This document shows, one piece after another, positions 231 through 19,130 of a stretch of DNA of 25,285 nt. A model generated the notes under the pieces. It made no database searches. It saw nothing but the letters and a program-made list of their open reading frames with translations, and was not told the origin of the DNA. The first letter of the stretch is position 1; the number at the start of each line of letters is the position of its first letter. The translations under genes and the position numbers were made by a program. The stretch comes from a virus, in the IMG/VR virus record IMGVR_UViG_3300019458_000085, positions 1 through 25,285 of that record; one strand, given 5' to 3'.

Positions 231-486
231 AATATAACCCGGACATAAAAGTATTTTTTCTTTTTATGATATCTTCAATTGTCCAAGATAGTTTAATACA
301 TTTATTTATACATTTTTCACACATATAGTTATAAAATTGCTTGACTTCGTGAAGACATAGTGAACATATTGGATTCTTTGGATCTAAAATACCTGTTAGA
401 TGTTTCCAACAACCTGTACAAAAAGGATAATTCCATTTATAGGGAATGTTAATTTTACAATTGTTGCATTTGTTGCATTTATTCAT
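220..486 (-). CDS. Multi-zinc-ribbon small protein with GLYY tail
   Basis: An 88-residue protein beginning MNKCNKCNNC, with CxxC-type pairs near residues 4-10, 23-26, 41-44 and 56-59, enough Cys for two zinc sites. The C-terminal third is charged and helical and ends in SGLYYAK. The start overlaps the stop of the VWA gene upstream (ATGA). The next start codon lies within the tail codons TAT-TAT-GCT. Function is unknown; it belongs to the tagged zinc-ribbon set of this window. Confidence 0.78.
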   Translation of the reverse strand: MNKCNKCNNCKINIPYKWNYPFCTGCWKHLTGILDPKNPICSLCLHEVKQFYNYMCEKCINKCIKLSWTIEDIIKRKNTFMSGLYYAK

Positions 487-2240
487 TTGTTAGAAGTATT
501 ACAGATAATAGTAAATTCCCCTCCATTTAGTTTTCCTAAGTCAGATGACATGTCTCGGAGTTGATCTTTGGTTTGATAATGTCTTCCATGTCCATATCCG
601 TAACTTAGATTAACTGGATCAGCAAAATAGATCGTATAGCATTTTTTATTAGTTTTATTAAATTCTTCAATCGCCGGAGGCGATATAGATGATAGTCCAT
701 CTGTGAACACAATAATAATATCTACTTCGTCTTCATTTATTCTATTTATTGCATGCCTAACTATAATTTCAAAAGAAGTTCCATATCCGCCACGAACTTC
801 TCCCTTCATAAACTTTTCCCAGTCTTCTATACCTTTTACTTTTTCTGAGAAACAATATTTCCCATGGTAATTTCCCCCTGTAATTTCACATTCATCACAG
901 TTATGAAAGAAATTTGCTATGTCTACCATATAAGGGATAAAAGCATGCATAGAAGGAGATGTATCAAAATAACAACAAATCTTTTTCTTGTTTCCTTTTC
1001 TTTCTTCATTAAAATATAATGGAATTTGATCAGGTCCACAAATATCTAGTACTATTAATTCAAACCCAGTTCTAGTTAAGTCTTTTGGAATAATATCTAT
1101 GGTAGTTGATGTTTTAATTTCGGCATAAATAGTATCAATGGCACTTTCTATTAACTTTTCTGTTTGCCATTTAGATATAAACTCATTTAACCCTTGATCT
1201 TCTGCACTCGCCGGAGTAAAAATATATTTGTCAAATATTGCATTTGGATTATTATAATTACTAAATCCATCTCCTTTTATTATTTTGGCACCATCAACTT
1301 CTTCTTTTATTGTTTTTTTATCGTTAGCTCTTACACCATTCATTCCTCCACGAAATAGGACATCGTCTATTTCATCGTCTTTCATTCTTTCAAATGGAGT
1401 AGATGTATTTGCATCGTTTGTGTCATGGCTATCATCCTCATCTTTTTCTGTTGGTTTATTTTCTTCTTTAGATTGATTTTTCCCATCTTCTGATTCTTGA
1501 GAACCAGTATAGTTTGTTTTTTCTTTGCCATCTGATCTATACCCATCTTTTATCCACTCATACATTTCTTCTATTTTCTTTTTGTCTTCTGGATTTAGCA
1601 ACGAAGACATTTTATTATATAGTAATAGCGGATCTGGTATGTCTGCATTAAATTCACTTGGATTTTTAGCCTCTGCACAAGTCGTATTTACTCGTGTTCT
1701 TACATAGTTTCCGTTCTCTGTTCGGGTTACCTTTTCGACTTGTGTTAGGTATATTTCATCAAATATTTTTTGCACCCTATTAGGCAACTCATTTCTCTCT
1801 CTCATTAAAATAGATGGATTCATTACACAATAAAGCCCTTTTGTTCTTGATTCTTCTGTTGGAAACAAGAAATTGCCAAGCTTTATCATACCTCTTGGAT
1901 TACATAAAAACAAAATTTTATTAATTGCGGCATCTAATGCAAAATTTATTAGTGCCTTATTAGTCGCTCCTCTAATATTCCTGTACATCGCTTTGTGCAA
2001 CATTTCATGCCGCAAAACTAGTACAAGTAAATTTACAGGCAAAGACTGTAATATATTTGCAGAAAATAGAATTTTTTCTCGCTTAGAAACTGGATCAAAG
2101 ATCCAACAAGCCGTTTGGCATCCATCTGGCATTCTATCAGAATAATCAACAATGGAACTATAAGTAACCCAATTTAAGCCAGATTTAACTATTACTCTGG
2201 TTAGTTTATTTCGTAGTTTTCTTTCATTAGATGTTAACAT
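483..2240 (-). CDS. VWA domain protein with N-terminal putative metallopeptidase domain (DUF2201-like)
   Basis: A 585-residue protein. The N-terminal domain carries HEMLH at residues 78-82, a zincin HExxH motif as in the metallopeptidase-like domain of DUF2201 proteins. Residues about 235-295 are a very acidic, low-complexity linker. The C-terminal von Willebrand A-type domain has the MIDAS elements D426-T-S-P-S430, T488 (GYGTS) and D514 (FTDG). Proteins of this design typically pair with MoxR/CobS-type AAA+ ATPases, and such an ATPase lies 9 bp upstream. The pair probably works as a substrate-remodelling chaperone that ferries or activates a client protein or metal centre; the client is unknown. 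It ends at an ATGA overlap with a zinc-ribbon gene. Confidence 0.9.
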   Translation of the reverse strand: MLTSNERKLRNKLTRVIVKSGLNWVTYSSIVDYSDRMPDGCQTACWIFDPVSKREKILFSANILQSLPVNLLVLVLRHEMLHKAMYRNIRGATNKALINFALDAAINKILFLCNPRGMIKLGNFLFPTEESRTKGLYCVMNPSILMRERNELPNRVQKIFDEIYLTQVEKVTRTENGNYVRTRVNTTCAEAKNPSEFNADIPDPLLLYNKMSSLLNPEDKKKIEEMYEWIKDGYRSDGKEKTNYTGSQESEDGKNQSKEENKPTEKDEDDSHDTNDANTSTPFERMKDDEIDDVLFRGGMNGVRANDKKTIKEEVDGAKIIKGDGFSNYNNPNAIFDKYIFTPASAEDQGLNEFISKWQTEKLIESAIDTIYAEIKTSTTIDIIPKDLTRTGFELIVLDICGPDQIPLYFNEERKGNKKKICCYFDTSPSMHAFIPYMVDIANFFHNCDECEITGGNYHGKYCFSEKVKGIEDWEKFMKGEVRGGYGTSFEIIVRHAINRINEDEVDIIIVFTDGLSSISPPAIEEFNKTNKKCYTIYFADPVNLSYGYGHGRHYQTKDQLRDMSSDLGKLNGGEFTIICNTSNK

Positions 2241-2249
2241 GTAAATTCC

Positions 2250-3518
2250 TTAAAAAGATAGTGGGGCCAAATTGGCCTCTTCGTTTTTAGCGTATTCAAA
2301 TAGCCGCAATTTTGCGGCATATTCTGCTTGGCGGCACAAATCAGCACTCTTAATAGCCTTATGCAATTCGACTAAATCCTTTACTTCTTCTTCTTTTTCA
2401 TCGTTTATTTCATTGATGATGTTACCTAACATATTAACTCGATCTGCATAGTCAAATCGTTCTTTAATAGGTTTTAGATACTTAGAAACAGATTTAATAC
2501 GATCACCAACAGATCCTGTATTTACCGAAATACTAATTCGTGCCATAAGAGAATCTCCGTCTATTAAGAGGTCCTTAAGTGTTTCAAATAATGGCCTAGT
2601 TTTATCTGAGTTAAATCCAAGTTTGGATGCAATAGAATATTGAATCGCATCCCATGCGCCGCTTTCAAGATATTCTGTATCTTGCATTACATGTTTATAA
2701 TAAGCTGCCACAGAAACAAGCAGCGGAACAAACTGGTTGCTAATTTGCCTAAAAGATATTTCTATCTTATTAGATCCGGCAGTCTTATTAAATTCTTTCA
2801 CGTTAGCTAGCAACGTAGAAAAGAATTTTGCCGTAAAATCATTAATATTTGTCATTAATTTTTTATTGTTCCATATTTCATCGTATGTTTCTCTGACCTT
2901 ATTTACCGTATCAAAAAGTTTTGTATTGTTTTCTGCAATGTTTTCGTCCCTTTTCCCCTGATTTAATTCAATCATCTTGGAAATTTCCTCAACCCCAACA
3001 ATATTACTTTTGTTATGAGTAGAGGGAACAGGAATTACCGCAAAAAATCTGTCAAGAAGTGCGGCATCAAGCTTATAGGCTCCCTTATATGTTTCTTCGT
3101 TCGCAGTTGCGATCACGAATTTATACTTTAAGGGAATTCCAAAAACTGTTCTCTCCTCAAGAATTTCTAAAACCATATTCCCTGTTTCTCTAGGGGCTCT
3201 AGTAATTTCGTCCATCATTATTACATCTGCATTGCACACGCTTCTTTCATGTGTTGCATAAGTAATTTTGCCCTTTTTAATGTCTTCTGGATTAGGACAT
3301 CCTACCATCGAGAGAAGATTTTCCTTGGACATTTCATATTTAATGAACCTATAATTCGGATCATTGCCAGAAAGTGCGGCTGACACAAATCTCGCTACCG
3401 AACTTTTGCCACATCCGTGTGACCCAAGTAATAGGAAATTATTTCCTCTGGCAAGACATGCTATGATAATAGGCTCTAGATTATGCCATCCATAAATATA
3501 ATTGTTAAGGTGACTCAT
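2250..3518 (-). CDS. MoxR/CobS-like AAA+ ATPase
   Basis: A 422-residue AAA+ ATPase. Walker A is GSHGCGKS (residues 32-39). Walker B is VIMMDE with D103-E104. Sensor 1 is at N140 (IATAN), and the LLDRF element with an arginine-finger candidate is at 155-158. Helical insertions before the core resemble the MoxR/CobS/RavA clade. The C-terminal 200 residues are helical without a further domain I recognise. The start overlaps the stop of the 363-residue gene upstream, and the VWA-metallopeptidase gene follows within 10 bp. MoxR-VWA pairs are established co-chaperones. Phage annotations often call such pairs CobS/CobT, but there is no sign here of cobalamin synthesis. Confidence 0.9.
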   Translation of the reverse strand: MSHLNNYIYGWHNLEPIIIACLARGNNFLLLGSHGCGKSSVARFVSAALSGNDPNYRFIKYEMSKENLLSMVGCPNPEDIKKGKITYATHERSVCNADVIMMDEITRAPRETGNMVLEILEERTVFGIPLKYKFVIATANEETYKGAYKLDAALLDRFFAVIPVPSTHNKSNIVGVEEISKMIELNQGKRDENIAENNTKLFDTVNKVRETYDEIWNNKKLMTNINDFTAKFFSTLLANVKEFNKTAGSNKIEISFRQISNQFVPLLVSVAAYYKHVMQDTEYLESGAWDAIQYSIASKLGFNSDKTRPLFETLKDLLIDGDSLMARISISVNTGSVGDRIKSVSKYLKPIKERFDYADRVNMLGNIINEINDEKEEEVKDLVELHKAIKSADLCRQAEYAAKLRLFEYAKNEEANLAPLSF

Positions 3519-7776: not shown

Positions 7777-9276
7777 TTACATTTTTTTAGCATAATCTGA
7801 CAGCAAAAATTCTTTTCCGTGCAATTTAACAATCATTCTTCCCAATCTTTCACTACATCTTTCTACAGAGGGCTTAATAACAATTCCTTCTCTATTATGG
7901 CAACCATTACCGATTATTGTTGGGCCATCTGCTAATTGTTCTACTTGTTCAAATGATATTAATGGGCCACGATAGATTATTGGAACCGAATTAAATTCTA
8001 ATTTATCGAAAATAAACTTAGCATCATCATAGTTTAAGTATTTTCCCTTCGTAATATCAAAGATATCAAAAAATGCTACTTTACACAAATTTGGATGACC
8101 ATAATGGTATTTGTTTCCTGCTTGAGTTTTACCATATAGCTCGCCAAAAAACAAAAGATTAGGATAATTTGCTAATTTTTCCCCAATATTATTTTCTCTA
8201 GCCCACTTAGACCATTCATTGTCATCGTCGTTTGCCTTAGCTAGTCTATGAGAACCCACCCATAAATCATTATCCACGTATGAAAATCTAGCGTTGGAAT
8301 TATGTACCAAAATATCTGGACAAAAGAAATTATTAGTTTCGGTTTCTATATCATATTTACTAGATTTTATTTTATATGTAACATCTGTTATGGATATAAT
8401 TTCTTGTTCTATTGTAATTCTTTTGTATTCTAACTGTATAGGCGTAAGCGATAAATCATTTCTTATGCCAGATACTTTATCATTAACATTTAAATCTTTT
8501 AATTCTTTATATGAATCAATATTAGGACAATAAAATTTATGATTTGGTGTTGCAACTACCTTGGAAAATGAATTTCCCTTCCCCAATCCTCTTCTTTTAG
8601 TTTTTATTTCAAGCCATTTATTACATTTTCCATTATTAAATGTATTTAAAACCTTAGATGGAATGATGTTTCTATTATTATCTTGTCCTAAAACATATTC
8701 TCCTATTTTTATTTTATTAATAGGTTTACTTGTTCCATCTGCCATCCTTATTCTTTGATTAGATTTTAAACATCCATGGATTTTTTCTGTAAAAATAACC
8801 TCTTCTCCAAGAGTGAATTCTTTAATATATTTTCTAGCACTTTCAATATCTGTGTACAATGAGAACCATGCTGGACTTTTTCTATTTTTGCCACTCATAT
8901 TGCAAGGTTCTACCGGATCAGGAGACTTAACAACTCCTAGAATTTCGGCAACATTAGTCCCAACTTCTTTATCTTCTAGGCCAAATAATTTGACTGGCAT
9001 TATAATTCCCATAGAAAATATCCCACGTAGCTTTTTGGCCTTGATAGTTCTTTGTCGTTCGCTTGGATTTTCTCTGTTTTGCCAAATAAATGCAAATTCT
9101 GGCTTAATTGGCAACATTGCATCAACTGGGAAATATATTGCTTTATCACCTTCTTGAAATTCACCTAGTTTGAATATTACAGGGAATTGATATACATGAG
9201 TAATTCCAAGAGTATCAGCTTCGGGATGTTTGCCCCATTTCCCTACTTTAATTATCTCAACTATTAATGTACTCAC
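7777..9276 (-). CDS. RNA ligase, DRB0094 family, interrupted by an intein
   Basis: A 499-residue precursor; about 341 residues remain after removal of the intein. Residues 1-120 match the N-terminal OB-like module of DRB0094-type ligases (VGKWGKHPEADTL, GEFQEGDKAIYFPVDAMLP). The nucleotidyltransferase domain has motif I EK165-IHG/SN with the AMP-accepting lysine, motif IIIa FFGELYGKTQ (E379), motif IV REGIVIKP (E463, K468), and motif V MIVKLHGKEF (K484, K488). The family seals RNA ends using ATP; in phages RNA ligases repair host-cleaved tRNA. The start is GTG behind GAGGT. The intein splits motif I, so the ligase should be inactive until splicing. Confidence 0.92.
   Translation of the reverse strand: MSTLIVEIIKVGKWGKHPEADTLGITHVYQFPVIFKLGEFQEGDKAIYFPVDAMLPIKPEFAFIWQNRENPSERQRTIKAKKLRGIFSMGIIMPVKLFGLEDKEVGTNVAEILGVVKSPDPVEPCNMSGKNRKSPAWFSLYTDIESARKYIKEFTLGEEVIFTEKIHGCLKSNQRIRMADGTSKPINKIKIGEYVLGQDNNRNIIPSKVLNTFNNGKCNKWLEIKTKRRGLGKGNSFSKVVATPNHKFYCPNIDSYKELKDLNVNDKVSGIRNDLSLTPIQLEYKRITIEQEIISITDVTYKIKSSKYDIETETNNFFCPDILVHNSNARFSYVDNDLWVGSHRLAKANDDDNEWSKWARENNIGEKLANYPNLLFFGELYGKTQAGNKYHYGHPNLCKVAFFDIFDITKGKYLNYDDAKFIFDKLEFNSVPIIYRGPLISFEQVEQLADGPTIIGNGCHNREGIVIKPSVERCSERLGRMIVKLHGKEFLLSDYAKKM
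8299..8772 (-). mobile_element. Mini-intein (158 residues) in the RNA ligase
   Basis: This codes residues 169-326 of the ligase precursor. It has Cys1 with a block A pattern (CLKSNQRIRMADGTSKPI). Block B is VVATPNHKFY with the TxxH core. Block F/G is YDIETETNNFF...ILVHN, with the penultimate His325, terminal Asn326 and +1 Ser327. There are no LAGLIDADG or HNH motifs and the middle is short, so no homing endonuclease is left. Removing it rejoins EKIHG to SNARF, the intact ligase motif I. All chemistry residues for class 1 splicing are present. Confidence 0.92.
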
Positions 9277-18581: not shown

Positions 18582-19130
18582 GTGTTAAAAAATAATAGAA
18601 TAAATAAAGTAATAGAGTCAATATGTTATTATTGTGGCGTAAAATTTCAAGCTAAAACATTATCATCTATGTACTGTTCTAAGAAATGTACTCATAAATA
18701 TCATTATGATAAAAAATTAGGCAAAGTAGGAATTCACACTAAAAAATGTAGAACTTGTGAAAAAGAATTTAGACCAAATTCGAGTGCAGCTTTTTGTTCT
18801 GATCATTGTAAAAAAGAAGAACATCTTAAAAGATCTAAAAGGTCTTATAATAGAATAAGAAATGAAATGAAACAATGGGCCATAAAATACAAGGGCGGAA
18901 AATGTTCAAAATGCGAAGAGTTTCATATTGCTTGTCTTCAGTTTCATCACTTAGACCCTAAGCAAAAGGATTTTACTATAGGGGAGTCTTGTAAAATAAA
19001 CTCAAGAATAAATAAAGAAATAATAAGAAAAGAATTAGATAAATGTATTTTGATTTGTGCTAATTGTCATTTTAAACTTCATTGGGAAAATAAGCAATTG
19101 ACTCAGATGAAGGCGCAAGATAAACAATAG
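18582..19130 (+). CDS. Free-standing HNH homing endonuclease
   Basis: A 182-residue protein, and the only confident plus-strand gene. N-terminal zinc fingers are at C15/C18/C32/C36 and C56/C59/C72/C76. The HNH core is C108-x-x-C111, LQFHHLDP (H122, H123), then ILICANCHFKLH (N161, C162, H163, H167). The GTG start is seven bases after GGAGG. The opposite strand and the tail-to-tail overlap of 59 bases with the next minus gene suggest insertion of a mobile endonuclease gene. No flanking intron is evident. The cleavage target, probably the empty site in related phages, is unknown. Confidence 0.9.
   Translation: MLKNNRINKVIESICYYCGVKFQAKTLSSMYCSKKCTHKYHYDKKLGKVGIHTKKCRTCEKEFRPNSSAAFCSDHCKKEEHLKRSKRSYNRIRNEMKQWAIKYKGGKCSKCEEFHIACLQFHHLDPKQKDFTIGESCKINSRINKEIIRKELDKCILICANCHFKLHWENKQLTQMKAQDKQ

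Follow-up and report, generated by a model that had tools for sequence, protein, structure and literature searches.

A predicted cis-splicing mini-intein in motif I of a phage Rnl5-type RNA ligase

Introduction

Phage RNA ligases are usually linked to the repair of tRNAs that host defences have cleaved; the cost, or the use, of an intein therefore becomes measurable when it interrupts the active site of such an enzyme. A 25,285-base IMG/VR virus record (the window, meaning the whole stretch of DNA analysed) encodes an RNA ligase whose motif I is interrupted by 158 residues, and the question is whether these residues leave the protein as an intein, are the remains of one, or belong to the enzyme. 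A first-pass annotation, made from the sequence alone, had placed a mini-intein of 158 residues at 8299-8772, within motif I of a DRB0094-type RNA ligase. These coordinates proved exact, and the family profiles and the junction described below bear out both the host and the site.

Results

An RNA ligase interrupted at motif I

The precursor is encoded by a single, uninterrupted minus-strand ORF (Table 1), and its residues 1-168 and 327-499, taken jointly, are recognized as an RNA ligase by family profiles. The match to TIGR02306 (RNA_lig_DRB0094) falls in two stretches (E 1.2e-37, 129.6 bits) and stays below the whole-protein cutoff of 151 because the insert splits it in two; the exteins also match PF09414 (RNA_ligase, E 5.8e-22) and the OB fold PF21189 (E 1.2e-14), and the precursor matches PHROG 968 (RNA ligase, E 2.8e-36). 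The Rnl5/DRB0094 architecture is complete, with an N-terminal OB fold followed by a nucleotidyltransferase domain carrying KxHG, the conserved downstream Glu, EGxV, and Lys. By profile and architecture, the host protein thus belongs to the DRB0094/Rnl5 type of ATP-dependent RNA ligases. An AlphaFold2 model of the precursor, built on a 32-row alignment, had a mean pLDDT of 83.6 and a pTM of 0.55, the latter making the placement of the domains uncertain. Foldseek searches with this model recovered the Naegleria gruberi ligase NgrRnl over the exteins (E ~1e-19); the insert deprives a whole-chain rmsd of any meaning.

Table 1. Positions of the ligase, the mini-intein and related loci (window coordinates unless another sequence is named)
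Feature	Position	Strand	Remarks
RNA ligase precursor ORF	7777..9276	-	499 aa + stop, GTG start
N-extein, residues 1-168	8773..9276	-	OB-fold domain (PF21189) and start of nucleotidyltransferase, through KIHG
C-extein, residues 327-499	7780..8298	-	Remaining nucleotidyltransferase domain; Glu379 (GELYG), Glu463 (REGIVIK), Lys484
Lys165 codon	8782..8784	-	Motif I nucleophile; invariant in 32-sequence alignment; aligned to NgrRnl active-site lysine
Mini-intein, residues 169-326 (Cys1 to Asn158)	8299..8772	-	158 aa; Hint/intein domain
Intein block B TPNH, residues 243-246 (T243PNH246)	8539..8550	-	
Intein block G His325-Asn326	8299..8304	-	
Ser327	8296..8298	-	+1 nucleophile, also ordinary ligase residue (KxHG[S/T]N)
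Endonuclease-deletion scar NDLSLTPIQLE, residues 273-283	8428..8460	-	Aligned with lead-in to LAGLIDADG domain in relatives
Split RNA-ligase intein, L020	2998-5319		
Split RNA-ligase intein, L022	2947-5412		
Split RNA-ligase intein, L027	1226-3781		
Split RNA-ligase intein, L033	2953-5627		
Split RNA-ligase intein, L036	2899-5549		
Split RNA-ligase intein, L039	2845-5302		
RNA-ligase inteins, motif III site included, L134	312-1886		
RNA-ligase inteins, motif III site included, L134	2854-4928		
Motif III intein, L135	2590-4749		
Motif III intein, L149	2108-4231		

The insertion point lies within ligase motif I at EKIHG/SN (slash, junction), the N-extein ending in TEKIHG and the C-extein starting with SNARF. 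Cys1 is itself the fourth residue past Lys165, with Ile, His and Gly intervening, which slightly shifts the first-pass wording of an intein four residues after the lysine. Alignment with intein-free relatives, a check proposed in the same annotation, revealed an empty site of the form TEKx[H/D]G[S/T/C]. Among 70 intein-free viral relatives from two scans, TEK-x-[HD]-G is followed by Thr in 39 cases, Ser in 23, and Cys in 8, shares that are biased in that the Ser and Thr cases came from a scan requiring one of these two residues and the Cys cases from a scan requiring Cys. The motif I site is chemically suited to inteins because the ligase's own residue at +1 is Ser, Thr, or Cys. Several 'HGC' matches (L012-L014, L016, L017, L024-L026, L028, L030, L037, and L038) were rejected as inteins, their Cys following KxHG naturally with no insert.

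The same site is occupied in cultured phages. In six mycobacteriophages of cluster J (Phoebus, Dallas, Beem, Bobby, KashFlow, and Hannaconda), the RNA ligase contains a 357-aa intein at a point equivalent to that of the window (QKLHG/C...HN/SS), and dozens of cluster J relatives with ligases 82-90% identical are without it. In the comparison of Phoebus with Wanda, both frames arrive at the junction at residue 197, upstream identity is 278/300 bases, and the insert sits precisely between the Gly and Ser codons. In cultured phages, therefore, the site is polymorphic for an intein, and the ligases normally lack one. Set against its homologues, the window insert is a true insertion, in frame, at an exact site, and missing from them.

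The insert has the fold and core residues of a class 1 intein

The frame through the insert is not open by chance, since every one of 20,000 base-shuffled versions of it lost the open frame. The core class 1 set is complete, comprising Cys169 (Cys1), T243PNH246, H325-N326, and Ser327 at +1. The first-pass statement that all splicing residues are present holds for this set but not for the F-block His, which is present in most relatives (THNF) and is replaced by Asn315 in the window intein (TNNF). This His is common among class 1 inteins without defining them, and other same-site inteins have Asn (L129) or Ala (L002) in its place; it is therefore not obligatory, although its loss could slow Asn cyclisation, the last step.

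Taken alone, the Pfam and NCBIfam intein scores lie beneath their curated cutoffs, with PF14890 (Intein_splicing) at E 2.5e-5 and 24.6 bits (cutoff 35.8) and weak matches to PF01079 (Hint) and PF05203 (Hom_end_hint). In blastp against the same-site inteins L008, L018, L120, L121, and L129, the window intein gave E values of 1e-23 to 1e-30 with this small subject set. For the insert, which has a Hint fold, the Foldseek matches were to solved inteins, among them NrdJ-1 and those of Npu DnaB, Ssp DnaB, and Mtu RecA, with E values no better than 1.7e-8 and target-normalised TM scores mostly of 0.7-0.85. The intein lies in one ORF and does not show the split layout with halves in separate frames. 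Only one copy of it is known.

Loss of the homing endonuclease

In agreement with the first-pass annotation, no homing endonuclease domain was found in the window intein, which consists of the splicing domain and a lead-in stub. Against its nearest relatives, it matches their first 113-116 and last 43-52 residues, which flank the absent LAGLIDADG domain, and identity with L008, L120, L121, and L129 is 38-49%. At the join, the window reads R-NDLSLTPIQLE-YKR where L008 reads R-TDLSLTPVQYQ-VVLGKLLGDG, so that about 11 residues of the endonuclease lead-in are retained without the remainder. Most related same-site inteins bear LAGLIDADG endonucleases; a LAGLIDADG_2 domain is found in those of a Miltoncostaea oceani plasmid, the cluster J phages, 11 IMG/VR contigs (L008, L011, L018, L031, L032, L126, L127, L129, L130, L134, and L136), and two actinobacterial contigs, from Plantactinospora and Catenuloplanes. 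The simplest reading is that the mini-intein derived from a full-length intein by deletion.

The splicing-domain tree groups the window intein with L129, L008, L120, and L121 at a support of 77; the tree as a whole has low support and unresolved deeper nodes, and this group alone was used. Its members reside in DRB0094-type and other ligases, which, as far as so weakly resolved a tree can indicate, hints at movement of inteins between ligase families sharing a motif. The GC content of the intein is 24.9% (GC3 12.7%) as compared with 33-35% (GC3 23-24%) for the exteins, a value as low being reached by 0.6% of equal windows; this is compatible with a foreign origin or with drift. Another endonuclease-less RNA-ligase intein, L125 (2953-4610; identical in L124), has an N-terminal frameshift in two assemblies, which may be either decay or a shared error. 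A single endonuclease loss common to L125 and the window mini-intein is not claimed, as the deletion ends differ.

Motif I as an intein hotspot

The first-pass annotation had treated a DRB0094-type RNA ligase as an unfamiliar intein host; neither host nor site is in fact unique to this phage, as inteins occupy the site in numerous RNA ligases of viruses and in a few of bacteria. On the alignments gathered here, motif I is a hotspot for inteins in cis, mini, and split form, with at least three families of ATP-dependent RNA ligases affected. These families are the DRB0094-type, the Rnl2-type (L018 and L032; T4_Rnl2_C), and a T4 Rnl1-like family represented by the first ORF of L134, whose match to PF09511 is sub-threshold. 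Single-protein viral scans with the window ligase or the Miltoncostaea ligases as queries gave no matches, and alignment queries were needed. The loci came from scans seeded on intein-bearing ligases with intein-biased patterns, and their counts therefore describe breadth, not frequency.

In 12 such loci (L020, L022, L027, L029, L033, L036, L039, L131, L134, L137, L140, and L141), the ligase is cut at motif I by a split intein. The N half stops ~94-103 aa past Cys1, and the C half of ~35-40 aa starts at its own ATG or a nearby start and runs through HN/S, T, or C into the remaining ligase. All six split loci examined (L020, L022, L027, L033, L036, and L039) have an endonuclease-like ORF between the halves, with sub-threshold matches to the DUF559/MTES_1575 nuclease families in two; the split inteins of these six are apparently uncharacterised. 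A similar arrangement, 'fractured genes' carrying split inteins, was reportedly described by Dassa et al. in 2009 for other phage proteins.

A second intein site lies at motif III (GE[WY].G/C...HN/S), as in L135, L134, and phage KLEP7. One ligase of L134 has both sites occupied, motif I by a split intein and motif III by one in cis, and adjoins an intein-bearing Rnl1-like ligase.

Three further loci were noted in passing. In L029 (3832-6637), the halves of a split RNA-ligase intein are separated by an HNH-like ORF and a gene for a C5 cytosine methyltransferase, while the first ~170 aa of the ORF with the C-intein half are a possible restriction enzyme; the split intein may thus enclose a restriction-modification system. 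In L035 (2503-4647), an intein sits one residue downstream (KMDGE/C...HN/CTT) in another RNA ligase with an HNH-like N-terminal part. L019 (2986-3929) holds an N-extein and an N-intein fragment, shortly after which come no more than the final residues of a ligase; it has a TnpB-like ORF upstream and is apparently the remnant of a deleted ligase.

Genome context

No close phage relative of the window was found: whole-window megablast against phage records gave no match, and the MoxR-like neighbour, used as an anchor for related phages, led to no close relative. Other genes in the window encode a uracil-DNA glycosylase, a deaminase, a metallophosphoesterase, and a tRNA-Leu. None of the scanned proteins was recognized as an RNA end-healing kinase, and an Rfam scan returned the tRNA only, with no known intron family. 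At 483-3518 (minus strand), a MoxR-like AAA ATPase adjoins a protein that matches the DUF2201_N metallopeptidase family below threshold, a pairing uncommon for a phage. A free-standing HNH endonuclease is encoded at 18582-19130 on the plus strand, ~9.8 kb from the intein, the other recognized genes being on the minus strand; nothing was found to link it with the mini-intein.

Discussion

The reading that best accounts for these data, and which we regard as very probable, is that of a class 1 cis-splicing mini-intein between KIHG and SN in motif I of a phage Rnl5-type RNA ligase. Intein chemistry proceeds through an acyl shift, transesterification, Asn cyclisation, and a final acyl shift. In the window protein, the Hint domain would take its own fold within the 499-aa precursor, Cys169 would attack the Gly168 carbonyl, the N-extein would be passed to Ser327 by transesterification, and Asn326 would cyclise with the assistance of His325 before the final acyl shift, yielding a 341-aa ligase with its TEKIHGSN motif intact. 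Because 158 residues part KIHG from the remaining adenylation pocket, no ligase-adenylate should form on the precursor before splicing, and ligase activity would depend on splicing; the first-pass claim to this effect is kept in this conditional form. The window copy would have lost its endonuclease from a LAGLIDADG-bearing family of same-site inteins and, without it, is presumably immobile alone. It probably persists because only an exact deletion would restore motif I and the enzyme.

Two other scenarios deserve consideration, both of them improbable. The first is a decayed intein that no longer splices, the RNA ligase being dead and its gene a pseudogene in the making. The absent endonuclease, the F-block change from His to Asn, the GC drifted to 24.9%, and the frameshift in the related L125 mini-intein would all fit such decay. 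The precursor frame is, however, open throughout, with the core nucleophiles and the block B and block G His residues retained, and the catalytic residues examined are kept in both exteins, so that we give this scenario little credence. The second is a subset of the preferred reading, in which a conditionally splicing mini-intein is a post-translational switch on phage RNA repair, as the first-pass annotation had proposed: the ligase would be held inactive until a stress or defence signal turns splicing on, and the recurrent use of the site would be partly adaptive. The insertion falls in the active centre and presumably leaves the precursor inactive, and regulated splicing has been reported for inteins in other proteins (PMC5790916, PMC6195587). 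On the other hand, no sensor was identified, the intein is sporadic at this site and missing from most cluster J phages, and the divergent cis and split inteins found at one site are as expected for selfish elements. Nothing found bears on conditional splicing itself, and the switch must be considered a long shot. That the 158 residues are instead a normal structural insert of the ligase, never excised, is vanishingly improbable, as nothing was found in its favour and the insert has a Hint fold with intein catalytic residues; relatives sharing a non-excised insert with these residues, the outcome that the first-pass annotation had named as counting against an intein, are ruled out by homologues reading straight through an empty site and by endonuclease-bearing inteins at the identical one.

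Returning to the cis-splicing mini-intein, its site appears to be under-described. In the open literature searched, no description of inteins in RNA-ligase motif I was found, the word 'ligase' is absent from the mycobacteriophage intein survey PMC5050341, and NCBIfam has special models for intein-containing RtcB, none having surfaced for DRB0094 ligases. GenBank holds one annotated 'intein-containing RNA ligase', that of Pseudaeromonas phage KLEP7 (OM654377). Annotation calls for caution here, since such ligases are split into two, scored too low, or given the name of the endonuclease. The split inteins of the hotspot are a candidate set for protein engineering.

Among known systems, the RtcB inteins (NCBIfam NF038162 and NF052663) also lie within an RNA ligase, but of an unrelated family with no KxDG motif I. 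The KLEP7 intein likewise resides in a phage RNA ligase, but at motif III (GEWAG/C...HN/S) of another ligase family and with its endonuclease present. Class 1 mini-inteins such as Npu DnaB, the Mtu RecA splicing domain, and fused NrdJ-1 share with the window intein the Hint fold, the Cys1/TxxH/HN/+1 Ser set, a size of ~140-160 aa, and the lack of an endonuclease, and differ from it in host protein, insertion site, and the F-block His, which is Asn in the window. The IMG/VR mini-inteins L007 and L125 are endonuclease-free at the same site of a DRB0094-like ligase, but L007 clusters with split inteins of another lineage, and L125 has other deletion ends and a frameshift. The LAGLIDADG_2 inteins of motif I, from the Miltoncostaea oceani plasmid to the cluster J phages and L008, L126, L127, and others, have the identical insertion point and a homologous splicing domain, and retain the endonuclease of which the window copy keeps only the lead-in stub. 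The window thus appears to hold a real mini-intein of a known class, one of a naturally occurring series in which endonuclease loss and the transition from cis to split inteins can be studied.
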